NCBI GenBank assembly: GCA_029945665.1
Contig: JAQSCZ010000024.1
Location: forward strand, 1 to 41,554
Source of the DNA: a bacterium
GTDB taxonomy: Bacteria > Bacteroidota > Bacteroidia > NS11-12g > UBA955
Direction of reading: 5' to 3'
Length of the DNA stretch: 41,554 nucleotides
Positions 5,528 through 17,068 of the stretch are shown piece by piece. Positions within the stretch are counted from its first letter, which is position 1. Each line of letters starts with the position of its first letter. The notes under the pieces are model-generated. The model saw nothing but the letters and a program-made list of their open reading frames with translations. It made no database searches and was not told the DNA's origin. Made by a program: the position numbers and the translations under genes.

Positions 5528-5932
5528 TTAGGGTCTTTCAAACCAATTCTCAATGGTGATTCCATTTAATCTTTTAAAATCTTTTACATTGTCTGTAACC
5601 AGTATAAGTTGGTGCTCGATAGCAGTTACACCTATTAGTAAATCAAACTCATCATTTAAAGGTTTTCCAATTTTTCTGAGTCTTACTTTTTCAATTGCAT
5701 ATCGATTAATAGCCCCAAAAATTGGGAGGATGGTAAGCCCTTTCAAAAAAGCATCGACAGCTTTATGTGATTTTGCAGGATTATCGCTATTCTGAGCGCC
5801 AAATCGAAGTTCAACCACCGTGATCTCGGAAACATAACAATTCTCTAATCCTTTTTCTTTGATTATCTGGTCTAAATTAAGTTTTCCGCGGAGAAAAAAT
5901 ACACAAATACTTGTATCAAGTAAATATTGCAT
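5528..5932 (-). CDS. vapC: VapC-family PIN-domain ribonuclease toxin
   Basis: A 134-residue PIN domain protein, the usual VapC length. The acidic metal-binding residues are visible: D6 (LLDTSIC), E41 (VVELRFG), D97 (NDEFDLLIG) and D114 (VTDNVKDF). VapC toxins are Mg-dependent RNases that cut tRNA or rRNA and are neutralised by a cognate antitoxin. Its ATG overlaps the antitoxin stop as TAATG, indicating translational coupling. The gene ends six bases from the repeat unit on its left, and the pair as a whole sits between direct repeats. The target RNA cannot be predicted. Confidence 0.88.
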   Translation of the reverse strand: MQYLLDTSICVFFLRGKLNLDQIIKEKGLENCYVSEITVVELRFGAQNSDNPAKSHKAVDAFLKGLTILPIFGAINRYAIEKVRLRKIGKPLNDEFDLLIGVTAIEHQLILVTDNVKDFKRLNGITIENWFERP

Positions 5933-6171
5933 TAAAGTTGAATGTCTTTGTTCTTGAATTTTCTGTTCGACTTAATGTCCTTGATAATTTCTTCTGCAGT
6001 TTTTTTTGAGGATAAAGCGCAAAAGGATTTAAATAATCTATTTTCTATGGTTTTATTTCCAACTTTAAGCGACTTGGTGAGCTTTTCAATAAGCTTTTTC
6101 TTGTTGGTTGAACTTAGCCCATCAATTAATCCAGAATAAGTTTCTACGATATGTTTATCGGTGAAGGTCAT
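5932..6171 (-). CDS. Antitoxin partner of VapC
   Basis: A 79-residue helical, basic protein starting MTFTDKHIVETYSGLID. The frame is open further upstream to 6234, but the promoter at 6186-6215 lies in that stretch, which fixes the start at 6171. The middle part (LSSTNKKKLIEKLTKSLK) looks like a dimerising helix, and the tail (TAEEIIKDIKSNRKFKNKDI) resembles toxin-wrapping antitoxin tails known from Bacteroidota PIN modules. It would bind VapC and repress its own promoter. No classical AbrB or MetJ motif is obvious, so the family label rests on position and general resemblance. Confidence 0.75.
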   Translation of the reverse strand: MTFTDKHIVETYSGLIDGLSSTNKKKLIEKLTKSLKVGNKTIENRLFKSFCALSSKKTAEEIIKDIKSNRKFKNKDIQL

Positions 6172-6185
6172 TTTATTTTGTGCTT

Positions 6186-6215
6186 CAAATATACGAAAAA
6201 TATATCTTTTATCAA
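6186..6215 (-). promoter_or_regulatory. vapBC promoter
   Basis: On the minus strand, TTG (6215-6213), 19 bases, then TATATTTG (6193-6186): a full match to the Bacteroidota -33/-7 consensus. The predicted start of transcription near 6180 leaves a leader of about 9 bases before the antitoxin ATG. Confidence 0.75.
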
Positions 6216-6303
6216 TCCCTTTTCGCCATCGCAAATGTTGTTGCTCTCAAAAATCATTGCCACCTCTTTATGGCTTTCGATTTTAAAAATTCAATAAGCT
6301 TTG

Positions 6304-6410
6304 TGCACTTTATTACAAGTAATGCTGCTTCGCGGTGTGTGTATTCTCTTCGTGCTCTTTGTGGTTAAAAAAGTGTTTAATTAACCCCGAAAGCTTGGAA
6401 GTTTTAATAC
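6304..6410. repeat. Partial repeat unit; right-hand direct repeat flanking vapBC
   Basis: Positions 6311-6387 match 5424-5500 over 77 bases with about four mismatches, including GTGTTTAATTAACCC, which the other units lack. The vapBC cassette lies between these two copies. Confidence 0.85.
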
Positions 6411-7020
6411 ACAATGAAGTAGCATTCCTTTCAAGTATTTTGAGATTTTATGTCACACTGAGCCTGTCGAAGTGTATTGATTGGAGTTGGTTAAGCTTTG
6501 TGTGTATTCGCTTCGTGTTCTTTGTGTTTAAAAAAAGGATTGAGTTTAACCCTGTACGTTGGAAATTTCAACGCAAAGGACACAAAGGTGGAGCCCGCAA
6601 AGGACTCAAAGAGGATACCAAGGCATAGAAAACTTTATGCGTTTTATTGCAAGCAATGCTGATTCGCGGTGTGTGTATTTTCTTCGTGTTATTTGTGGTT
6701 AAAAAAAGGATTGAGATTAACCCCGAAAGTTTGGAAGTTTTAAAACACCACGAAGTCGCATTCCTTGCATGTATTTTGAGATTTTATGTCACACTGAGCC
6801 TGTCGAAGTGTATTGATTGGAGTTAGTTAATCTTTGTGTGTATTCGCTTCGTGTTCTTTGTGTTTAAAAAAAAGTTTCGAGGTTAATCCCAAATATTTGA
6901 AAATTTTAACGCAAAGGACACAAAGGTGGAGCCCGCAAAGGACGCAAAGAGGATTACTGTAAAAACTTAGTGCTATTTATTGCAAGCAATGCTGCTTCGC
7001 GGTGTGTGGTATTCTTTTTC
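6411..7020. repeat. Tandem REP-like repeat units B and C (period ~334 bases)
   Basis: Two head-to-tail copies. The landmark AATGCTG...CGCGG falls at 6321, 6655 and 6988 (spacings 334 and 333). The hairpin ACACT-GAGCCTGTCGA-AGTGT is at 6455-6475 and 6791-6811. Unit C is the closest relative of unit A (shared GTTTCGAGGTTAATCCC). No coding sequence is likely. Confidence 0.85.
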
Positions 7021-7061
7021 GGTTTTTTAATGAATTTAATGGAATGATTAATTGGATAATT

Positions 7062-7277
7062 GGGCATTTTAAAAGCTAAAATTGGGTTCTTAAAACTAAA
7101 AATATGCCTCTTAAAAGATAAATTTAGGCTCTTAAAAGTAAAATTTGGATTCTTAAAAGATAAAATATGGTTCTTAAAAGTAAAAATTAACCTCTTAAAA
7201 GCTAAAATTAGGTTCTTAGTTGTTTCTTTTGGGTTCTTAAAAAGATCTTTTAGGTTCTTAAATGGGGGATTTGAGGA
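7062..7277. repeat. 21-base tandem repeat, about ten copies
   Basis: Degenerate copies of GGNTCTTAAAAGNTAAAATTT, period about 21. Because 21 is a multiple of three, the array gives an open frame (repeated FLKxKI), but it has only a TTG start and no ribosome-binding context, so I do not call a gene. Confidence 0.75.
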
Positions 7278-7529
7278 AAAAGCCTAACCTCTAACCCCTT
7301 ATTCGACAGGCTTAGAATGGCTATAAAGGAGAGGGGGACGAGTAAATAGCAGAAATTGAGGGATTTGTCTGCGGATGGTATTGGCTCCTTAAAAGTATGG
7401 CTTTGCCTCCGGTGCTTCGCGGTGGATTATAATTTAAAGATGCTAATAGAAGGATATAAATATTTGAGATTAAAACTCCAAATGGACAAACAATGCAAAA
7501 AAGTCTAATATACGCAATAGCTCTATGAA
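7278..7529. other. Intergenic with one REP-like remnant
   Basis: No gene seen. At 7301-7318 ATTCGACAGGCTTAGAAT is another variant of the GAGCCTGTCGA hairpin on the opposite strand. GGTGCTTCGCGGTGG near 7418-7432 recalls the repeat-unit landmark. Confidence 0.4.
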
Positions 7530-8483
7530 TTATACTAAATGCATTTTAGGTCTTAAATCAATTGAACTATTATAATACTCAAATGGGATATAAAACCTAC
7601 TTATATCTGTGATAGGAATAAATTTAATTTCAGGAAATATTCCTTTAAATCTATTTTGGAGGTTTTCACAAGTTTCAATTATTCTTTCATCTTTATTTTG
7701 ATAGTATATTTTTTTAATTTTAAGTTTTTTTATAATCTCTAAGTCATAAAAATGATTGACCGTAGGAAACGAATAACCTATAGCAACCAAAATATTTTCA
7801 TTTTCGAACTTACTTGCACCTAAAAAATTTTTAAGTTTATCGATTTTTGTCTCTTCCCATGCAAATATTATTTCTGGGATTGATTCTAAAATTTCATTAA
7901 CTCCTTTTATTTCCTCATTATGATTTACAGTTAATGGCTTAATTTCCGCACTGCCATTAATTTTATAATAATTATTGCTGTTAATAGTAATATCGTTGTT
8001 GTTATCATTTTTTAGAAAATTAGCTGCGTGTTCAATCTGATTATCATAATTCCAACTTAAAATTGATAAATTGCTATTTAATTCAAATTTATTATTAATG
8101 AGTGTTAATAAGAATTGACTATAACGACTATCAACATATTTTCCAACAGATTCAATATAAAAAAATAGTAATGAAATGATTCTTTTATATTTTAAAAATA
8201 ATTCTGATTCATTATTGAGATACAATTTTCTCATGGCTTCATCTATTGTATTGTGCTGACTAATAAATTTTGAGAAAATAGTTGTTTCCTTGAATACTCG
8301 CGCAATACTTTCGTAATATTCAGTTGATATATATTTTGAATCTATTATTTCTGAAAAATTATCAGCAAGAGGCATACGTGTGATGCCCAGCTTGTCATGA
8401 AAATTTTTAGATGCATTATTATATTTTTTATTTTGTGCGCTTGCACCTGCACCTAAGAGATAAATGATATTAGGAGTTGACAT
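7530..8483 (-). CDS. SIR2-like domain protein, third gene of a putative defence operon
   Basis: A 317-residue protein. Residues 5-16 carry the Rossmann nucleotide-binding motif of SIR2-like proteins (IIYLLGAGASAQ). Residues 141-151 (ILSWNYDNQIE) correspond to the conserved T/S-x-N-Y-D motif, and ~246-256 (ILVAIGYSFPT) match the C-terminal GYSFP block. In phage defence, SIR2 domains usually cleave NAD+ to abort infection. The K-x-H-G-S motif reads KINGS here (174-178), with Asn where the catalytic His is expected, so it may bind NAD or a related nucleotide without typical hydrolysis. It starts 13 bases after the PLD gene stop, same strand. The gene is markedly AT-rich, suggesting transfer. Fold call good; activity uncertain. 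Confidence 0.72.
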   Translation of the reverse strand: MSTPNIIYLLGAGASAQNKKYNNASKNFHDKLGITRMPLADNFSEIIDSKYISTEYYESIARVFKETTIFSKFISQHNTIDEAMRKLYLNNESELFLKYKRIISLLFFYIESVGKYVDSRYSQFLLTLINNKFELNSNLSILSWNYDNQIEHAANFLKNDNNNDITINSNNYYKINGSAEIKPLTVNHNEEIKGVNEILESIPEIIFAWEETKIDKLKNFLGASKFENENILVAIGYSFPTVNHFYDLEIIKKLKIKKIYYQNKDERIIETCENLQNRFKGIFPEIKFIPITDISRFYIPFEYYNSSIDLRPKMHLV

Positions 8484-8496
8484 TTGTTTAAGGATT

Positions 8497-9219
8497 TTAA
8501 AAAAAATTTAAGCTATTTTGAAGATTAACTGCATCAGCATAGTTTTTATACAAAACTGGATGATTAAAGGATGTTTGACCATTGGAAGGCTCGCCTGAAT
8601 AGTGGCAAAAACTTTCTTCATAATCGCCATTTGACCACCAACTCCATTCATCATATGCAATTTTACAAAACGGTTTATTTATATTAAATGGTATTTCGAC
8701 ACCTGTACGTATACAAAATCCTTTATGACTCATTTTGTAGCTTTTTGTATTTAAGTTATTCGATAATTTTGGTCCCGAATTTTGATTATTTTGTTGTGAT
8801 TTTGACAACTGAGATACTTTGAGAATTTGTTGACATTCTTGTATTGCCTCTGCGAATGCCTCCTCGTCTTCTTTAGAATTTAATAATATGCCTGCTTCAA
8901 AATTGTTTTTTTCGGAATATTCATAAAAGTTCATTGAGCCAATAATACAAATTGATTCATTCGCATATATTTTGGCATGCATGTTTGGACAATAACAAAT
9001 TTGTAAGTTTTTTATATCTTTAATTAAATCTACTGAATCTATTTGTTTACCATAAATTAGTTTTACGATTATTCCTCGCTCGCTTGCCTCCTTTATTCTG
9101 CTTATAAAAATATCGCTAATTTGAAACGAATAGCTAATAAGATAAATTTCTTTTTTAGCTTTTCTAATTATTTCTTCAAGCGCTGCAGATGAGCCTTTTG
9201 TAGTTAAGAATTTTGCCAT
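8497..9219 (-). CDS. PLD-family nuclease-like protein with degenerate zinc ribbon
   Basis: A 240-residue protein. The N-terminal domain (1-135) is a single phospholipase D-type phosphodiesterase domain with an HKD motif: H81-x-K83 (NMHAKIYAN), then G94-S95-x-N97 (IGSMNFYEYS), with E108 after it. Single-HKD proteins dimerise to form the active site; relatives include the Nuc and BfiI nucleases. A polar linker (~138-162) leads to a tail (168-230) laid out like a double zinc ribbon, but only the first Cys of three pairs remains (C169, C185, C205); the partners are Thr, Ala and Ser. It starts three bases after the methyltransferase stop, so is surely co-transcribed. Likely the DNA-cutting component. 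Confidence 0.83.
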   Translation of the reverse strand: MAKFLTTKGSSAALEEIIRKAKKEIYLISYSFQISDIFISRIKEASERGIIVKLIYGKQIDSVDLIKDIKNLQICYCPNMHAKIYANESICIIGSMNFYEYSEKNNFEAGILLNSKEDEEAFAEAIQECQQILKVSQLSKSQQNNQNSGPKLSNNLNTKSYKMSHKGFCIRTGVEIPFNINKPFCKIAYDEWSWWSNGDYEESFCHYSGEPSNGQTSFNHPVLYKNYADAVNLQNSLNFF

Positions 9220-9222
9220 GGA

Positions 9223-11622
9223 TTAATTTTTAAGAAAGCCTAGCTCATAGACTTGAGGTTGGAGTTTTTCTGTTAGGGTATTGTAGGCTTCTTCGAATGG
9301 TTTGAAGCTAACGGGTGCAAAATCGCCACTGGCATTGCGGGCTTGGAGGGCTTTGCGGATTTGATACCAGCCGACATCGGGGCGATTGAGTTTTAATTCA
9401 TCGCGAACTGACCTTACATCTATTTCTGCAAAGTAGGCTTGCCATAGCTTTTTGCCTTCGGCAAGAACTTGATTTGCTTCGGTGGATAGTTTTTTGTTGG
9501 CTAGGTACTTTACCATAAAATCGCTTTCGAAGCGTGAAGGGGCATTTACTTCTTCTTCGGTATATGGAATAAAATGATTGACAATTGTCCATTGTTTATT
9601 GTTCCATTCTAATTCATTAGCAGAAGCAGTTCTTTGACAACGATTAAATAACATCCATGCTAAACAATCTGTTTTAAATTCTTCGCTTAATGGTTTTGTC
9701 GGTTGCAAAAACTGGTCTCGGTCATTCAGCCAAGTTGGTTTAACTAGTCTTCTAATTGAAAAGACAATTGCTGCTTGCCAAAGATTTTCTTGATTAATGT
9801 AAAAGCCATTTCCACCTCCATAAGGTGAAGAGTAAATTATAGTTTGTTGTTCTGCATGTTGCAAATCATTTACACCACAATACATATAAGCTATTGCATT
9901 GTCAGACCATGTTTTTACGCGAGGAATTGTTTCTGATGGTGTGATTGAATTTCTTAAAGGTATTACGGAAATTTTATTTGCTTTAGGTCTATCTATCCAA
10001 ACATTTAAAAATGTGTTATTGGGTAAGTTGTAGAACAATTTATCTCCTATTGGATTTGATTCTTTATCTAAAACCTCTACAGATATTTCTGTGATTATAT
10101 TTTTAATTGTAGCATTTTGATTAGTTTGCCAAATCAAAAAACCAATGGGAAATTTTCCAGTCAAGCCTTCAAATGCTTTATTGTGTACAACAAAACCTCC
10201 AAGAAATTTTGCATTCCAAACTTGTCTGAATTTTTCGAAGTTTGGAGCATTTACGTATTTCATAGTGCTAAACATTGAAATTACTGCTTTGGGGATTTCC
10301 TTTGCAATCCTAGCTAAAAATTGCGTAAATAATTCGTTGCTAGCTTTCCCAAAATCTTTCATTGAAGTTGATGCAATTTTTGTTTTTGCAACGCCTTCCT
10401 TGTTTTCTGCATTTATTCCATTGGCAATGTTTTCAAAATTTGTTGCTTCTGCATAAGGCGGATTAATCAATACTAAAATCTTTTTACCTTGAGCAATTGA
10501 ATCACGCAAGGCTTGAGGTATTTTGTTTGTTAAGGTGTAATCTATATTTCCGTCATCTGTTATATCATCGTTTAAATAATCGTATTGGAAGCGGGTGGCT
10601 GCGACACAAGTTTTAGTAGCTTTCATTACATCGACATCTGCACTATCTAAAGTAGACATAAAGATATTGCGAGGGTTACTATGCTTTACCTCCAAATTGC
10701 CAACGCCACAGCACATATCCCAAACGATGTAATCTTTTTGCCAATTGTTGCCGAGGGTTTCGGTTAATTTATCGTAAGCTTTATCGACCACATTTAATGG
10801 AGTATAATATGCGCCTTTGAAACTTCTTTCATCAATGGGAATTAGACTATCGCGCCTTTCTAATAGATAATTGCGATACTCTGCCTTTGGAGGACGATGA
10901 TAGATGGCCCAAAATTGGCGATAGCCTTCTTTGTTGCCCAATTCATATAATTTGCCACCTAGACTAAATACGGGGGTGTTGCCTTTATGAAGTAGCTCGG
11001 CTGGTAAATCGTTATGAGTGCTTATAGTGCCATCGCTCATAATATCGGCAAAGAAGAGGAGTGCATAGTCTTCGTCTTTAACTCCATTGATTTCATTGCC
11101 TATCATGACTACCCATTTATCGAAGACTTGTTTTAAGTTATCGGGGGTAATTTGGGTACGTATAATATCGCCACTTTTAATGGCATTCTTAATGGTGTTA
11201 ATAAACTCCTCTTCGTGTGTTTCTATTTTAAATGAAACGAAGTGAGTGCCAATATGTGCCGAAACTGCATCTAATGCATCGGGTGTATAGTTGCTTGCAG
11301 ATGTACCCCATTTAATAGTTTTCTTTTCGAGAAAGGGTATAACATCGGCACTCTTCATAATGGCTGCTTTCACTGTATCGATAACGCAAAGAAAAGGGGG
11401 CAGTTCTTCTCCTTTATTTAAGGCTTGCTGCACATAATGCATGAGTTGGGTAAACATTGCATAGGTGGAATGCTTGCCTGTGTCTTTTGCTTCGAACCAA
11501 ATTTCTTTGGTTTGGATATCTATAAGATTTTTGGAATATGATTTAAGGCCAAGTGCTTTTATATATGCATCTTTTACATCTTCTTCGCTTTTGGCTTGTT
11601 GTAGTTTTTGGTATAGGGTCAT
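9223..11622 (-). CDS. Adenine-specific DNA methyltransferase with possible N-terminal PD-(D/E)xK nuclease
   Basis: A 799-residue N6-adenine methyltransferase of the Eco57I/type IIG sort. Motif X-like GAYYTP is at 270-275, the AdoMet motif DMCCGVGN at ~302-309, and catalytic NPPY at ~387-390. The N-terminus has D35 and E44-A-K46 (DIQTKEIWFEAK), a spacing compatible with a PD-(D/E)xK nuclease, so the protein may both modify and cut. Residues ~420-700 would hold target recognition. It is the first gene of the three-gene operon with the PLD and SIR2-like proteins. A possible promoter is TATTTTTG on the minus strand at 11712-11719, without a -33 match. The middle of the gene is visibly more AT-rich than both ends, suggesting a swapped recognition region. 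Confidence 0.85.
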   Translation of the reverse strand: MTLYQKLQQAKSEEDVKDAYIKALGLKSYSKNLIDIQTKEIWFEAKDTGKHSTYAMFTQLMHYVQQALNKGEELPPFLCVIDTVKAAIMKSADVIPFLEKKTIKWGTSASNYTPDALDAVSAHIGTHFVSFKIETHEEEFINTIKNAIKSGDIIRTQITPDNLKQVFDKWVVMIGNEINGVKDEDYALLFFADIMSDGTISTHNDLPAELLHKGNTPVFSLGGKLYELGNKEGYRQFWAIYHRPPKAEYRNYLLERRDSLIPIDERSFKGAYYTPLNVVDKAYDKLTETLGNNWQKDYIVWDMCCGVGNLEVKHSNPRNIFMSTLDSADVDVMKATKTCVAATRFQYDYLNDDITDDGNIDYTLTNKIPQALRDSIAQGKKILVLINPPYAEATNFENIANGINAENKEGVAKTKIASTSMKDFGKASNELFTQFLARIAKEIPKAVISMFSTMKYVNAPNFEKFRQVWNAKFLGGFVVHNKAFEGLTGKFPIGFLIWQTNQNATIKNIITEISVEVLDKESNPIGDKLFYNLPNNTFLNVWIDRPKANKISVIPLRNSITPSETIPRVKTWSDNAIAYMYCGVNDLQHAEQQTIIYSSPYGGGNGFYINQENLWQAAIVFSIRRLVKPTWLNDRDQFLQPTKPLSEEFKTDCLAWMLFNRCQRTASANELEWNNKQWTIVNHFIPYTEEEVNAPSRFESDFMVKYLANKKLSTEANQVLAEGKKLWQAYFAEIDVRSVRDELKLNRPDVGWYQIRKALQARNASGDFAPVSFKPFEEAYNTLTEKLQPQVYELGFLKN

Positions 11623-11742
11623 TGATTAAAATTCTACTGCTTTTATATTCTATATAATTACTATATTTTCTTGTGTTTTATTATGTTTTATTGTTGTTTA
11701 CTAGATTTTAACAAAAATAAGTATTTAAAATAAGCGGATAGA

Positions 11743-11767
11743 AAAAGTAATACACTAAAATTAAACG
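11743..11767. repeat. 25-base direct repeat, left copy
   Basis: AAAAGTAATACACTAAAA followed by TTAAACG. It matches 12259-12283 at 24 of 25 positions and flanks the small secreted-protein gene. Confidence 0.8.
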
Positions 11768-11801
11768 TATTGTTTCAACCTATTATTAATTAAATCGACA
11801 A

Positions 11802-12197
11802 TTATTCAATAGGAGTAATGAATCTCTTTTCGAGATTTATAGACCAATGCACTTGCCAAGTTCTGCCGTCCATTTGATCTAATAATATGAATGTGTAAAT
11901 ATTCTGAGTTGGATAAAGCGTAAATCTGTCGTTAACTTCCTTGTCGGAGGTTACTAAAGGCACTATACTTAAGTTTGTCGTCATGCGATTTTCTTCTTCA
12001 ACTCCAAATTGAACCAGCCACATTTGCCCATTTCTAGTATTAAGTTTTATGAAATTATAAATATTTTGAGTAGGGAAAAGCCGATAAGAAACCGCATTTA
12101 TACTTTGTAGTTTTAAACTATCATTTTGCTTATTTTTATTTTGAGCAAATGAATAAAGGGTAGATAATGTAAAAATAATTGTGACTAAAAACTTCAT
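11802..12197 (-). CDS. Small exported protein with two internal repeats
   Basis: 131 residues with a signal peptide ending SFAQ (residue 18). Two ~45-residue repeats make up the rest: YRLFPTQNIYNFIKLNTRNG then MWLVQFGV, and FTLYPTQNIYTFILLDQMDG then TWQVHWSI. The shared pattern (F/L)(F/Y)PTQNIY-x-FI-x-L-x5-G-x-x-W-x-V matches small Bacteroidota proteins I remember as uncharacterised; no enzymatic motif is seen. A TAATTTTG -7 element lies upstream at 12227-12234. The gene and its promoter lie between two near-identical 25-base direct repeats, suggesting it arrived or duplicated as a unit. Confidence 0.7.
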   Translation of the reverse strand: MKFLVTIIFTLSTLYSFAQNKNKQNDSLKLQSINAVSYRLFPTQNIYNFIKLNTRNGQMWLVQFGVEEENRMTTNLSIVPLVTSDKEVNDRFTLYPTQNIYTFILLDQMDGRTWQVHWSINLEKRFITPIE

Positions 12198-12226
12198 AAT
12201 CTCGTTTAATAATTTATTGTGATTTA

Positions 12227-12234
12227 CAAAATTA
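12227..12234 (-). promoter_or_regulatory. Candidate -7 element
   Basis: TAATTTTG on the minus strand, 29 bases before the ATG of the small repeat protein. No -33 TTG was found. Confidence 0.35.
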
Positions 12235-12258
12235 ATCTATAATGAAATATGAATTAGG

Positions 12259-12283
12259 AAAAGTAATACACTAAAAATAAACG
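12259..12283. repeat. 25-base direct repeat, right copy
   Basis: AAAAGTAATACACTAAAA followed by ATAAACG; one mismatch to 11743-11767. Confidence 0.8.
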
Positions 12284-12495
12284 AGGTAATACGGTAAGCT
12301 CTGAATCAAGTTCAGCGCAAGCCCTACCCCAGATAGAAGCGGCATATTAGAAGACGGATGCATAGTGGTTGGCAGCTAAAGCATAGCGACCAGAGGAAGC
12401 TAATGCCTAGCTAAGCCAATACATGCAGCGGGCTGCTGATATATAGCGAATAGCTGGATTATGGTACGAAAGATTTTAACGCAATACTAAACATT
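12284..12495. other. Non-coding stretch with higher GC, unidentified
   Basis: No gene. It is richer in GC than its surroundings and has repeated short words (CATAGCGA, ATAGCGAA, GCATAGTGG) and a small palindrome (CAGCgGGCTG near 12428). CCCAGATAGAAGCGGCAT (12334-12351) resembles an intergenic element I have seen in other Bacteroidota. It could be a decayed repeat or a small RNA. Confidence 0.3.
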
Positions 12496-12528
12496 ATGTG
12501 GCAGAGAATTATGCTGCTATACATTCAC
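12496..12528. repeat. Palindromic element copy 1, right arm missing
   Basis: ATGTGGCAGAGAATT...CATTCAC matches the copies at 12949-12990 and 13125-13166, but the right arm (GCCACATG/GTCACATG) is replaced by RhuM coding sequence. Confidence 0.65.
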
Positions 12529-12853
12529 AAAGCCTTGTATTAGCCCATTGGCGAAACTTTGTTCCCTGATGACTTTTTACACGATAGCCAACTGAAATTA
12601 TTACATCGAGATTGTAGTAATTAGTGGGTTTAGTAGAAAAATCGGAATTTCCGATTTTTCTCATAGAAAATAAACTATCAAGTTCGCTTTCTTCGTAAAT
12701 ATTTAAAATATGTTCATTGATAGTAGAACGTGATTTTTGAAAAAGTTCAGCCATCTGGTCAATTGTTAGCCATACGGTCTCATCTTCTAATACGGTCTCG
12801 ATTTTAGTAATGCCATCCTCAGTTTGATAAATAATTATTTTCGTGTTTTCCAT
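12509..12853 (-). pseudogene. Truncated RhuM-family gene, N-terminal third
   Basis: Encodes 114 residues that match my memory of the N-terminus of the virulence RhuM family (normally ~330 residues): IIIYQTEDG, VWLTIDQMAELFQKSRSTIN, NYYNLDVIISVGYRVKSHQG, TKFRQWAN. Homology stops after FRQWANTRL, where the full protein would go on with a KEYI-like stretch and a long C-terminal region. The last residues (CECIAA) are encoded by the palindromic element at 12496-12528, so the gene was cut there by recombination or insertion. RhuM proteins have no firm biochemical role. This fragment keeps the DNA-binding-like N-terminal part and may or may not be expressed. Confidence 0.8.
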
Positions 12854-12948
12854 TTTTCTTTATTTGTCAATGTTTTTTTAAATAAGTTATTCTAATTTAC
12901 TACTGTGCTTGCACCACCTAATTGAGTTCTCCACTTTGTTCCGATCAT

Positions 12949-12990
12949 CATGTAGCAGAGAATTCCGTTTCACCACATTCACGCCACATG
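12949..12990. repeat. Palindromic element copy 2
   Basis: Arms CATGTAGC and GCCACATG (one mismatch) enclose AGAGAATTCCGTTTC...CATTCAC. A second small palindrome (GCCACATGGC) follows at 12996-13005. Confidence 0.65.
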
Positions 12991-13055
12991 ATTCCGCCAC
13001 ATGGCCAATAAATTCAATCGCTAACAACTTAGCTAGCCAACTGCCAACTGCTAGT

Positions 13056-13078
13056 CATCCTGAGCTTGTCGAAGGATG
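13056..13078. repeat. REP-like hairpin CATCCT/AGGATG
   Basis: A stem CATCCT/AGGATG around GAGCTTGTCGA, the same core loop as the hairpins at 5242-5264, 6455-6475 and 6791-6811 but with a different matched stem. Confidence 0.75.
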
Positions 13079-13124
13079 CCAACTTTTCCTAATCCACCAA
13101 CTTCTTCAACTCCTGCAGTTTCAC

Positions 13125-13166
13125 CACGTGACAGAGAATTCCGCTTTGCTGCATTCACGTCACATG
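13125..13166. repeat. Palindromic element copy 3, abutting the mutS stop
   Basis: Arms CACGTGAC and GTCACATG (one mismatch) enclose AGAGAATTCCGCTTTGC...CATTCAC. It ends three bases before the mutS stop codon and may form the 3' end of its transcript. Confidence 0.65.
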
Positions 13167-13168
13167 GC

Positions 13169-15772
13169 TCAGTCAACTAATCTCTTTAATTCTTGTAGTT
13201 TCATTAGAGCATCTATGGGCGTAAGACTATTCACCTCCATACTCTTTAATTGCCTGTGCAGCTCCTCTATTTTAGGATCGGAAACACCAAACATGGTGAG
13301 TTGGTATTGGGGTACTTTAATGGTTTTTAGGGTCTCGCGGCCTGAGACTTGCGAGCGGTCTTGCTCTAGCTCTAATAATATTTGTTCGGCACGCTGCACC
13401 ACTGTTAAAGGTACGCCCGCCATTTTGGCTACATGGATACCAAAGCTATGTTCGCTGCCGCCTTTTACAAGCTTGCGAAGGAAGAGAATTTTGTTTTTGG
13501 TTTCTTTAATCGAGATATGGAAATTGCAAATGCCCTCTACATTTTTCTCCAACTCATTGAGCTCATGGTAGTGGGTGGCAAATATTGTTTTAGGGGCTAA
13601 GGGATGCTTGCCTAAATACTCGGCTATGGCCCAAGCCAGGGATACGCCATCGAAGGTGCTAGTGCCACGCCCAATTTCATCTAATAGAATTAAACTGCGC
13701 GCACTTACATTGTTGAGGATGCCTGCGGTCTCAATCATCTCTACCATAAAGGTAGATTCGCCACTGGAGATATTATCGCTAGCGCCTACGCGGGTGTAGA
13801 TGCGGTCGACCATGCCAAACTCGGCATGCTGGGCGGCTACAAAGCAACCTATTTGCCCCATGAGAACGGCCAAGGCGGTTTGTCGTAGAACGGCTGATTT
13901 ACCACTCATGTTAGGACCTGTTAAAATAACAATGCGTTGCTTCTCTTTATCTAATGCAATATCGTTGGGGATATAGGTATCGTCTATTTTTAACTGCTGC
14001 TCGATAACAGGATGGCGGCAATTGGTAAGGTTAAGGTCGAACCCATCGTTAATAATAGGCTTAGCATAATTGTGCTGTTGCGAAACTTCGGCAAAACTTA
14101 CCAAGCAATCGATGCGCGCCAATAGCTGACTGTTGAGTTGCACTGCGGTAATATAACTGCCCATGTAATGCAATAGCTCGCTATACAATCGGTTTTCTAT
14201 TTCGAAAATGCGACTCTCGGCTGTTAATATTTTTTCTTCGTAGGTTTTTAATTCTTGGGTAATATAACGCTCGGCATTGGTAAGGGTTTGTTTGCGAATC
14301 CAATCTTCGGGCACCTTGTCTTTGTGGGTATTGGTAACTTCTAAATAATAACCAAACACAGAGTTAAAGGCAATTTTTAAAGAAGAAATGCCTGTGCGTT
14401 CGGTCTCGCGTTTTTGTATGCCTACTAAATAATCTTTGCCGCTATAGGCCAGGGCTCTTAGCTCGTCTAACTCGGCATCAACGCCATCATTGATAACGCC
14501 TCCTTTATTTACTAGGAGGGGTGAATCTACTTTTACCTCGCGGGTAATTTTATCGATAAGGGTTTGGCATGGATTTAATTGCTCGTTGAGAATTTGCATT
14601 TCGGCGCCTTGCAAAAGCCCTGTAATTTGCTTGATGTTTTTAACACAATCTAAGGCGCGGGCCATTTGCAATACCTCGCGGGGATTGGCGCGCAGTAAGG
14701 ATATTTTAGAGATGATTCGCTCTACATCGCCACATTGTTTCAGTTGTGCAGCAATATCTGTGAAGGCTGTTTTATTTTGAATTAAACTTTCAACTGTATT
14801 GAGGCGGTTGTTAATTTCGGGCAAATCTTTGAGGGGCAATACCAGCCATTTTTTGAGCATGCGACTGCCCATTGGGGTGAGGGTTTTATCGAGCACATCT
14901 ACCAAACATTTGCCGCCTTGGTAGGTAGGGTAGAGGATCTCTAAATTGCGAATGGTAAATTGATCGAACCATACATAATTATCTTCATCGATACGGCTAA
15001 TGGTATTGATGTGGGTGATGTTGTTTTGTTGGTTGTGTTCAAGGTAATACAACGAACTGCCTGCAGCGATAATGGCATTCGGCAAATGGCTAATACCAAA
15101 ACCTTTGAGGGTAGTGGTGCCAAAGTGTGACAACAATTTTTCTTGGGTATAATCCAATTGAAACACCCAATCATCGATGGTGAATTGATAAAATTTTTCG
15201 CCTGTTAATTCTTTAAATTGTTTGGCTTGGTTTTTACTTAAAATAACCTCCGATGGGCGCAGGCTATTGAGTAATTTATCGATGTAATCGAGGGGACCTT
15301 CGGCTACTAAAAATTCGCCTGTAGAGATATCTAAAAAAGAACAACCGGCAATGTTGCCATTGAAATAAATAGCAGCTAAATAATTATTGCTGCGGGTATC
15401 TAATACTTTATCGTTAAATACAACACCAGGCGTTACGAGTTCGGTAACACCGCGTTTAACAATGCCTTTGGCCATTTTAGGATCTTCGAGTTGATCGCAG
15501 ATGGCAACACGCTGTCCAGCACGAACCAGTTTAGGTAAATAGGTGTCTAATGAGTGGTGAGGGAAACCTGCCAATTCAATTTCGCTGCTGCTGCCTGCTC
15601 CGCGTTTGGTGAGTACGATGCCTAAAATTTGAGAAGCACAAATGGCATCTTCGCCAAAGGTTTCGTAAAAATCGCCTACTCTAAACAATAGTAAGGCGCC
15701 CGGATATTTTTGTTTAAATCCGAAATATTGCTTCATCAGCGGTGTTTGAGAATCTGTTATCTTTGCACTCAT
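13169..15772 (-). CDS. mutS: DNA mismatch repair protein MutS
   Basis: 867 residues, full length for MutS1. Binds mismatches and small loops and recruits MutL. The N-terminal mismatch-binding Phe-x-Glu motif is present (GDFYETFGEDA, ~32-42). Connector, core and clamp domains follow. The ABC ATPase has Walker A GPNMSGKS (~618-625), the block STFMVEM, Walker B LILLDEIGRGTSTFDG (~695-710) and the switch FATHYHE. The C-terminus ends in the short helical tail typical of the family (ALMKLQELKRL). It is transcribed divergently from the SpoU-type methyltransferase with 60 bases between. Nothing appears broken. A palindromic element lies immediately beyond its stop. Confidence 0.98.
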   Translation of the reverse strand: MSAKITDSQTPLMKQYFGFKQKYPGALLLFRVGDFYETFGEDAICASQILGIVLTKRGAGSSSEIELAGFPHHSLDTYLPKLVRAGQRVAICDQLEDPKMAKGIVKRGVTELVTPGVVFNDKVLDTRSNNYLAAIYFNGNIAGCSFLDISTGEFLVAEGPLDYIDKLLNSLRPSEVILSKNQAKQFKELTGEKFYQFTIDDWVFQLDYTQEKLLSHFGTTTLKGFGISHLPNAIIAAGSSLYYLEHNQQNNITHINTISRIDEDNYVWFDQFTIRNLEILYPTYQGGKCLVDVLDKTLTPMGSRMLKKWLVLPLKDLPEINNRLNTVESLIQNKTAFTDIAAQLKQCGDVERIISKISLLRANPREVLQMARALDCVKNIKQITGLLQGAEMQILNEQLNPCQTLIDKITREVKVDSPLLVNKGGVINDGVDAELDELRALAYSGKDYLVGIQKRETERTGISSLKIAFNSVFGYYLEVTNTHKDKVPEDWIRKQTLTNAERYITQELKTYEEKILTAESRIFEIENRLYSELLHYMGSYITAVQLNSQLLARIDCLVSFAEVSQQHNYAKPIINDGFDLNLTNCRHPVIEQQLKIDDTYIPNDIALDKEKQRIVILTGPNMSGKSAVLRQTALAVLMGQIGCFVAAQHAEFGMVDRIYTRVGASDNISSGESTFMVEMIETAGILNNVSARSLILLDEIGRGTSTFDGVSLAWAIAEYLGKHPLAPKTIFATHYHELNELEKNVEGICNFHISIKETKNKILFLRKLVKGGSEHSFGIHVAKMAGVPLTVVQRAEQILLELEQDRSQVSGRETLKTIKVPQYQLTMFGVSDPKIEELHRQLKSMEVNSLTPIDALMKLQELKRLVD

Positions 15773-16521: not shown

Positions 16522-17038
16522 TGCTCTTGTTGTAGCGCCTTTAATTAACTAAGTAATTCCGCAGCCCGTCATGCTGAAAAACAGGAAGCATGGCAAGCGA
16601 GCAGGCTGTTTATTCAGCATCGGGCAGACCCCACCCCAAATTTCCACCGAAGCCCCTTCCCCCGAATGAGAACCATGGAAATATAGATTCCGGTTACTCC
16701 GCGCGTTCCTGAATAAATATTTTTACAGAGCCACAAATATTTTTCAGGAAGACTTCACTCTAGGAAGTTTGTGGTTAGGTTTTGGCAAAATCCTCAGACA
16801 AATCTTTCATATCCGGATTGACGGATTGGATGGGCTCTATTTTCCATTGTCTGTGCCAATTTTTAAGTTGCTTTTCTCTTGCAATGGTAGCCACAATGGA
16901 TGGAATTGTTTCGAAATAAACCAAATAAAAGCAATTGTAACGCGAAGTAAATTTTCCGCCAATTGAATCTTTGTGTTGAGAAACCCTTCTTTGTAAATTC
17001 GAAGTTACGCCAATATAAAACGAACTTCTTTTTTTGTT
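16522..17038 (-). repeat. GIY-YIG/hairpin block, copy 1 (intact)
   Basis: A 517-base block repeated at 18105-18635. In GIY-YIG sense: the endonuclease gene body, then hairpin 2 (16708-16748; CCTGAA-t-AAATATTT paired with AAATATTTTTCAGG, one bulged T), a GC-rich constant stretch, then hairpin 1 (16565-16624; CCCG-tc-ATGCTGAA paired with TTCAGCAT-CGGG, two-base bulge), then GGCGCTACAACAAGAGCA. The arms are conserved between copies, but the inside of hairpin 1 is not. Confidence 0.85.
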
Positions 17039-17068
17039 CGACATGATGTAAACATAGCCTGTTTTCAT
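16775..17068 (-). CDS. GIY-YIG endonuclease, intact, 97 residues
   Basis: A stand-alone GIY-YIG domain of the UPF0213/YhbQ-like size class. It begins MKTGYVYIMSNKKRSSFYIG, where the GIY block appears as GYVYIM and the YIG block as FYIGVT. The conserved Arg (NLQRRVSQHK) and the catalytic Glu (AIAREKQLKNW) are present. These small nucleases cut DNA at branched or specific sites; some act as homing enzymes. Here the gene is the coding part of a duplicated block with two structured hairpins downstream, a context that looks selfish or mobile rather than a fixed repair role. The start is set by the GIY block, which leaves only three residues upstream. Confidence 0.88.
   Translation of the reverse strand: MKTGYVYIMSNKKRSSFYIGVTSNLQRRVSQHKDSIGGKFTSRYNCFYLVYFETIPSIVATIAREKQLKNWHRQWKIEPIQSVNPDMKDLSEDFAKT

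Follow-up and report, generated by a model that had tools for sequence, protein, structure and literature searches.

Two genes behind one enzyme

Why would the genes for an adenine methyltransferase, a protein of the phospholipase D (PLD) family and a SIR2-like protein follow one another so closely on the same strand? The three lie on contig JAQSCZ010000024.1 (assembly GCA_029945665.1) of a bacterium of the UBA955 lineage (Bacteroidota), whose 41,554 nucleotides are referred to below as the window. The original prediction took them for a single anti-phage system, in which the methyltransferase would mark the host, the PLD protein or an N-terminal nuclease would cut unmarked DNA, and the SIR2-like protein would provide a backup by depletion of nicotinamide adenine dinucleotide (NAD). 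By its motifs and layout, the first gene appears to encode a complete single-chain restriction-modification enzyme, more than a lone methyltransferase. The family of this enzyme is horizontally mobile, and the trio is absent from all the other loci examined. The best explanation (probability about 0.6) is a self-sufficient mobile type IIG enzyme, behind which defence-type add-ons have been acquired separately. The genes are, in the order of the operon:

9223-11622, minus strand: type IIG-like single-chain restriction-modification enzyme, 799 residues (open reading frame, motifs and structural model)
8497-9219, minus strand: PLD-family protein, 240 residues (Pfam PLDc_2)
7530-8483, minus strand: SIR2-fold protein of the Asn-Asn type, 317 residues (structural model and alignment)

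All three open reading frames (ORFs) run from ATG to stop and are separated by 3 and 13 bases, exactly where they had been placed by the prediction. Strand and spacing make it likely that the trio forms a single transcription unit, and a terminator scan of the minus strand gave no site in either intergenic gap; the three terminator-like minus-strand sites inside the operon all fall within the methyltransferase gene. Co-transcription, as predicted, has this in its favor, but a promoter-like match stands directly ahead of the SIR2-like gene (8522-8494, minus strand), which may thus have transcription of its own. Such matches are scattered across the AT-rich region (39, compared with 28.7 and a standard deviation of 5.1 in shuffles). 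The GC content of the three genes differs (0.369 for the methyltransferase gene, 0.299 for the PLD gene and 0.253 for the SIR2-like gene, against 0.428 for the nearby mutS), as is expected if their origins are separate. No Rfam family matched at gathering scores anywhere in the window.

A type IIG-like restriction-modification enzyme

The first protein is laid out as an N-terminal PD-(D/E)XK-type motif (D35, E44-A-K46 and Q59), an N6-adenine methyltransferase domain with WDMCCGVGN as motif I and NPPY at residues 387-390, and a C-terminal target-recognition region; from the order of its motifs, we take the methyltransferase to be of the gamma class. The predicted NPPY methyltransferase is therefore present, but it was underdescribed, the chain having the make-up of a whole restriction-modification enzyme with a nuclease motif at its N-terminus. 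An alignment of 85 rows comprises the window and 84 other loci (numbered with L; L015, L016 and L017 were left out because L059, L075 and L082 carry identical contigs). Within it, D35 and E44-A-K46 are kept in each of the 83 rows with coverage there, while Q59, motif I and N387-P-P-Y390 are kept in all 85.

By sequence, the enzyme reaches the cut-off of no Pfam or NCBIfam family and matches no PDB chain well. PADLOC, to which the prediction had pointed for comparison, links it weakly to type II methyltransferases (20 bits), and the identical model matches 15 of 21 family members. A structural model built from 16 sequences (mean predicted local distance difference test score, pLDDT, 72.3; predicted template modelling score 0.59) resembles type IIG and ISP enzymes most, and has its best match in DrdV (Z 16.0, root-mean-square deviation (rmsd) 14.7, 373 residues aligned, Foldseek expectation value (E) 3.8e-8). 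Further matches are LlaGI (Z 14.9, rmsd 4.1, 304 residues aligned), LlaBIII (14.5), BpuSI (13.9) and BsaXI (13.2). M.TaqI and other adenine methyltransferases score only a few tenths of Z below BpuSI, so the methyltransferase core accounts for much of the fold score, and the listed matches cover mostly residues 245-794. With the type IIG enzymes DrdV, BpuSI and BsaXI, the window enzyme has in common a nuclease motif, an adenine methyltransferase and a C-terminal recognition region on one chain; it differs from them in having PLD and SIR2-like genes downstream. In the ordinary type IIG scheme, which was part of the prediction and is backed here by the motifs and the model, the methyltransferase domain would mark an adenine in the enzyme's own target and the N-terminal nuclease would cut DNA without the mark.

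How widespread is this enzyme? Scanning genome_contigs with two short patterns returned 333 relatives, from which the best 80 were kept. These 80 show 68-84% identity in the best segment and belong, judging by their titles, to the Bacteroidota, the Gamma-, Beta- and Alphaproteobacteria, the Campylobacterota, the Ignavibacteria and one Patescibacteria bin. Plasmids also carry it: an Acinetobacter plasmid of 9.8 kb has a copy with 67% identity, Fluviibacter plasmids have copies with 59-60%, and weaker plasmid relatives (22-30%) occur in Lactobacillaceae, Virgibacillus and Helicobacter; phages gave no match. Among 196 relatives of the window genome (numbered with G), six carry the family (E of at most 1e-20). 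The enzyme family is horizontally mobile.

Identities of 68-84% for an 800-residue enzyme over several phyla (L053-L132) point to recent or ongoing spread. Some copies are broken, since the enzyme relative is split into two frames in L093 (404 and 380 residues) and in L072 (699 and 143 residues).

The slot downstream of the enzyme

If the three genes made up one system, should they not be found together elsewhere? Profile searches of 96 other loci of the enzyme family (1,328 ORFs, 1.33 Mb) found none with all three. Five of these loci hold distant relatives with about 24-32% identity (L013, L014 and L018-L020). A downstream ORF is present in 89 loci and 81 extend at least 1 kb downstream; seven end before any such ORF, so that a few might conceal a partner. 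The SIR2-like subfamily has no match in the flanks of the 96 loci. The PLD family appears in two of them, directly downstream of the enzyme relative in L078 (gap of 9 bases, 35% identity to the window PLD protein) and about 6 kb off on the opposite strand in L079. Among the 196 related genomes, SIR2-like genes occur in five (E limit 1e-5) and PLD genes in eight (E limit 1e-10), and G187 is the sole genome with two of the three families, on separate contigs. The co-occurrence by which the prediction was to be checked is thus missing from these loci and genomes, and a recurring methyltransferase-PLD-SIR2 system is rejected, there being no other case in 96 loci and no co-located pair among 196 genomes. 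What does recur, once, is the adjacency of methyltransferase and PLD genes in L078.

This second pair bears on the idea that the PLD protein is a BfiI-like restriction nuclease of the methyltransferase, with NAD depletion by the SIR2-like protein as a backup. BfiI-type restriction joins a PLD nuclease to a B3-like DNA-binding domain, and in both the window and L078 a PLD gene directly follows that of the enzyme. However, a PLD gene lies close downstream in just one of the 89 other loci with a downstream ORF, and in the SIR2-like protein the catalytic His is replaced (see below). Since the enzyme has a conserved nuclease motif of its own and mostly occurs without a PLD gene, the PLD protein is not needed as the cutter of unmarked DNA that it had been predicted to be, and a BfiI-like arrangement is very improbable.

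What, then, occupies the slot behind the enzyme? A downstream neighbor is present in 78 of the 84 other loci, and in 18 it shares the strand, comes after no more than 30 bases and has at least 100 residues; the one in L072 is a broken-off end of the enzyme itself, leaving 17 close neighbors (upstream, the same criteria give nine of 80). Six of the 17 belong to defence-associated families: a SIR2_2-like protein that differs from the SIR2-like protein of the window (L054, 4.8e-4, under the cut-off, gap 18), the PLD protein of L078, DUF2971 proteins in L088 (0.0013, under the cut-off, gap 9) and L129 (1e-4, over the cut-off, gap 10), HEPN_AbiU2 in L117 (4.8e-16, gap 3) and RhuM in L125 (2.5e-43, gap 9). 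The neighbors in L011 and L012 gave no match in PADLOC, and the other nine are, by eye, housekeeping-like or unplaced. Past the 30-base limit stand Shedu SduA in L119 (gap 31, 9.8e-125) and a DUF559 gene in L097 (gap 38, 5.4e-29), and the neighbors in L091 and L113 match candidate-defence models. The family scan covered 11 of the 62 close downstream ORFs on the list, which includes two from the window itself and the L016/L075 duplicate.

On an IMG/VR contig (L009), a 74-residue SIR2-like remnant lies 19 bases behind an enzyme relative (10174-10398), with stops in all frames behind it; this is a decayed methyltransferase-SIR2 pair.

The PLD-family protein

The second protein matches PLDc_2 over residues 16-125 (E 3.3e-13), with nothing further over the Pfam cut-off, and is remotely similar to the Nuc-type endonuclease 1byr (E 0.0075). 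It had been described as an HKD nuclease; the family holds, and the site is more exactly HxKx4E, present once per chain (H81 and K83). In an alignment of 11 relatives, H81, A82 and K83 are invariant. By eye, the C-terminal domain resembles a zinc ribbon that has lost its cysteines (GFCIRTG...). The protein would most likely be a dimeric HKD nuclease acting on DNA that escapes the enzyme.

Relatives were looked for in several collections. IMG/VR holds 66 PLD-family loci, 15 of them distinct, and in none of the 15 does a neighbor within three genes carry [DNS]PP[YFW]. In plasmids, 616 records match part of the protein and none covers 80% of it. Among the nine genome loci examined, L044 has a type I R-like gene (HSDR_N, 7.8e-13) at a distance of 0.7 kb from the PLD relative, and in L046 the PLD relative has an HNH_2 gene directly behind it (3.9e-13).

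Could the locus be a form of DISARM? The PLD protein is weakly similar to models of DrmC, scoring 49.7 bits against an equivalog cut-off of 133 for NF038319. DrmB of DISARM carries an MZB/DUF1998 domain, and PF09369 (MZB) has no match in the whole genome of the window (98.8% complete), whereas the control matches in eight of 14 genomes. Membership of DISARM is rejected on both counts.

A SIR2-fold protein with Asn at the catalytic His

The third protein bears the SIR2-like motifs GAGAS (residues 11-15) and WNYD (144-147, with N145), and a KING motif whose N176 stands at the place of the catalytic His. The protein itself has no significant match in Pfam, NCBIfam or PADLOC; among 20 family members, PADLOC SIR2 models match seven (best 6.5e-8) and Pfam SIR2_2 one (0.0041), and a sequence search of PDB chains with the SIR2 profile gave no match. 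The structural model (mean pLDDT 79.9) has a SIR2 fold. It resembles the SIR2 protein of SIR2/HerA, with Z 13.6 for 8wld (rmsd 3.7, 231 residues aligned) and 13.3 for 8w9l (PsSIR2), and has the NAD-site Asn in common with it; unlike SIR2/HerA, the window operon is without a HerA gene and Asn replaces the catalytic His. The fold is also shared with ThsA of Thoeris (8bto, Z 10.7), SPARSA (8y80, 10.9) and KomBC of Kongming (9v12, 10.5). The predicted SIR2-like character is thus borne out by GAGAS, WNYD and the fold, but not by the catalytic residue.

The exchange is shared by all aligned members of the subfamily. In an alignment of 20 members, GAGAS is kept in all 19 rows that cover it and N145 in all 20; position 176 is likewise Asn in all 20, within [KRH]-[IL]-N-G (one A), and no column has His in more than eight rows. 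Outside these rows stand L042, which is cut by a contig end and has Asn at the place of residue 176, L147, a duplicate of L146, and as an outgroup the weaker matches L231-L233 (E about 2e-13). Ordinary MAFFT alignment with four outgroup sirtuins left the His region unaligned, and a profile alignment was used there. It aligns N176 with the K-V-H-G His of L231 and L232; in L233 and L054 it is ambiguous or stops short.

What would the loss of this His mean? According to passages of the respective papers, NADase activity is abolished by H186A in SPARSA, where the dyad, in the authors' proposal, controls the access of water and does not itself act directly (PMC10781750), and by H152A in ThsA, which also disturbs oligomers (PMC7272460). 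In the same way, activity is tied to the His by FAM118B H206A or FAM118A H191A, according to parts of a third paper (PMC12700824). PDB entry 9xvc is titled KomBC(H146N), the same type of exchange as the natural N176, and was presumably made to be inactive. As all 20 aligned members have Asn in place of the catalytic His, the predicted NAD depletion by ordinary NADase activity is doubtful, and an altered mechanism is possible. The protein would most likely bind NAD or an ADP-ribose-type nucleotide through the GAGAS/N145 pocket, and with Asn at this position it may be a nucleotide-sensing switch or an enzyme of altered chemistry rather than an ordinary NADase.

Plasmids gave no match to the SIR2-like protein. 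No genome was added when the phylum was searched again with a richer profile, and no locus by a second viral scan. No paper on the trio or on the Asn-type SIR2 subfamily was found in the portions of the PMC literature searched, and none there combines 'SIR2', 'restriction-modification', 'type IIG' and 'phospholipase D'. The novelty lies in the combination of genes and, even more, in the Asn-Asn SIR2 subfamily.

Surroundings of the SIR2 subfamily

The subfamily was followed through 21 loci (L147 was dropped; L145 and L152, 96% identical over 10 kb, were both kept; L230 is frameshifted and L042 is cut by the contig end). Defence genes lie directly upstream, within 29 bases, in four of the 21, namely the window, L040, L144 and L039 (a raw count). 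In L040, a type ISP/IIG enzyme (PADLOC E 8.1e-299) comes first, then a 127-residue gene and, after a gap of 3, the SIR2 member. In L144, it stands behind type III Mod and Res (gap 29), with a further same-strand gene 66 bases on. In L039, it comes 1 base after a GajB-like UvrD helicase (1.5e-49) that starts at a distance of 166 bases from the contig end and is missing the beginning of its UvrD domain. In three further loci the SIR2 member is itself followed, at less than 100 bases, by a defence-type gene: AbiH in L229 (4.4e-31, gap 92) and DUF2971 in L041 (1.8e-6, gap 68) and L142 (0.0017, under the cut-off, gap 73). There is also a weak Abi_2 match 153 bases downstream in L228. In the other 14, judged mostly by eye, neither arrangement is seen; the upstream gene in L043, at a gap of 31, is a thioredoxin-like DUF255 protein.

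Might the SIR2-like protein be coupled to the enzyme? By analogy with PrrC, it could guard the enzyme, with or without the PLD protein, and be released once a phage anti-restriction protein disables it. Members directly behind type ISP/IIG, type III and GajB-like helicase genes are in keeping with such a role, as is the precedent of PrrC-EcoprrI, in which a defence gene is linked to a restriction operon (PMC2610378, in part). PrrC, however, cuts tRNA and has a type I enzyme as its partner, and the coupling in the window is hypothetical. Furthermore, 17 of the 21 loci are without such genes directly upstream (mostly by eye), the flanks of the 96 other enzyme loci hold no member, and the protein is without the catalytic His. 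The further gene in L144 and the incomplete helicase in L039 also detract from the supporting cases. Coupling of this kind is the main rival to the best explanation; it is unlikely, though by no means negligible.

A broader idea is put forward tentatively and with the odds against it: Asn-Asn sirtuins may be an interchangeable add-on behind restriction genes (IIG, ISP, III) and a helicase gene that senses either failing restriction or an NAD-derived nucleotide, and sets off a second defence by something other than plain NAD hydrolysis. The mixing of shared defence domains has already been described in general, in passages of PMC10952713.

A variable site next to mutS

The operon begins 1.5 kb from the end of mutS, and its surroundings contain the following features:

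13169-15772, minus strand: mutS, conserved border of the variable site, outside the system
12509-12853: RhuM-family piece, 114 residues, matching Pfam profile positions 17-56 of 252 only
5528-5932: VapC-type PIN toxin gene (NF047863, 111 of 140 bits)
16775-17068: GIY-YIG domain gene (4.8e-18), on the far side of mutS

The RhuM piece is probably a remnant, and the VapC-type gene forms a probable toxin-antitoxin pair with the 100-residue gene upstream of it (5528-6234). In the sister genome G014, whose mutS is 96% identical, the same site holds a SIR2-like gene of the subfamily (24.6% identity) together with DUF2971 and DUF4365 genes, and neither a methyltransferase nor a PLD gene. G001 and G002 have HipA-like genes there, while by eye G007, G012, G013 and G015 have nothing of a defence kind; the contig of G008 ends before the site is covered. 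The operon thus sits in a variable defence and toxin-antitoxin site where modules stack.

The stretch 3' of mutS (window 5528-15772; L255, L260 and L262) is variable within the genus. It also contains repeats: a 171-base unit in 3.4 copies lies between the VapC-type pair and the operon (6336-6909), and arrays of 21-base units occur near the methyltransferase operon in the window (7069-7218, 7.1 copies) and in L017 (10233-10488, 12.2 copies), the units of the two being unlike in sequence.

Do the PLD and SIR2-like genes then merely share the site, with no role alongside the enzyme? The variability near mutS and the unlike GC of the genes speak for such hitch-hiking, as do the 15 distinct IMG/VR loci in which PLD relatives have no restriction-type neighbor and the many solitary SIR2 relatives. 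Against this, the gaps are tight and all three frames intact, members of the SIR2 subfamily stand behind other restriction genes, and PLD relatives lie near restriction-type genes in L078, L044 and L046. Pure hitch-hiking is improbable.

Probable separate add-ons and their significance

The preferred reading remains a self-sufficient type IIG enzyme, downstream of which the PLD and SIR2-like genes would have joined as separate modules in the variable site near mutS, acting beside the enzyme rather than as its subunits. Several points weigh against it. The N-terminal nuclease fold is loosely covered, the match to DrdV spanning model residues 1-586 at an rmsd of 14.7. The tight gaps of 3 and 13 bases and the second methyltransferase-PLD pair (L078) hint at selection for the arrangement, and so do the SIR2 subfamily members that stand behind other restriction genes in L040 and L144. 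The low GC of the genes may instead reflect lineage or function. Finally, the ordinary deacetylases CobB (Z 10.7) and Hst2 (10.6) tie with ThsA, SPARSA and KomC, so the SIR2 fold by itself says nothing on defence.

Should the add-ons cooperate with the enzyme, interchangeable partners would equip a plain type IIG gene with a second layer of defence, and the SIR2 subfamily would represent a sirtuin-type defence protein without the residue that the NADase activity of its relatives needs. If they act independently, the locus still shows how operons that look like defence systems can arise by stacking in a hotspot.

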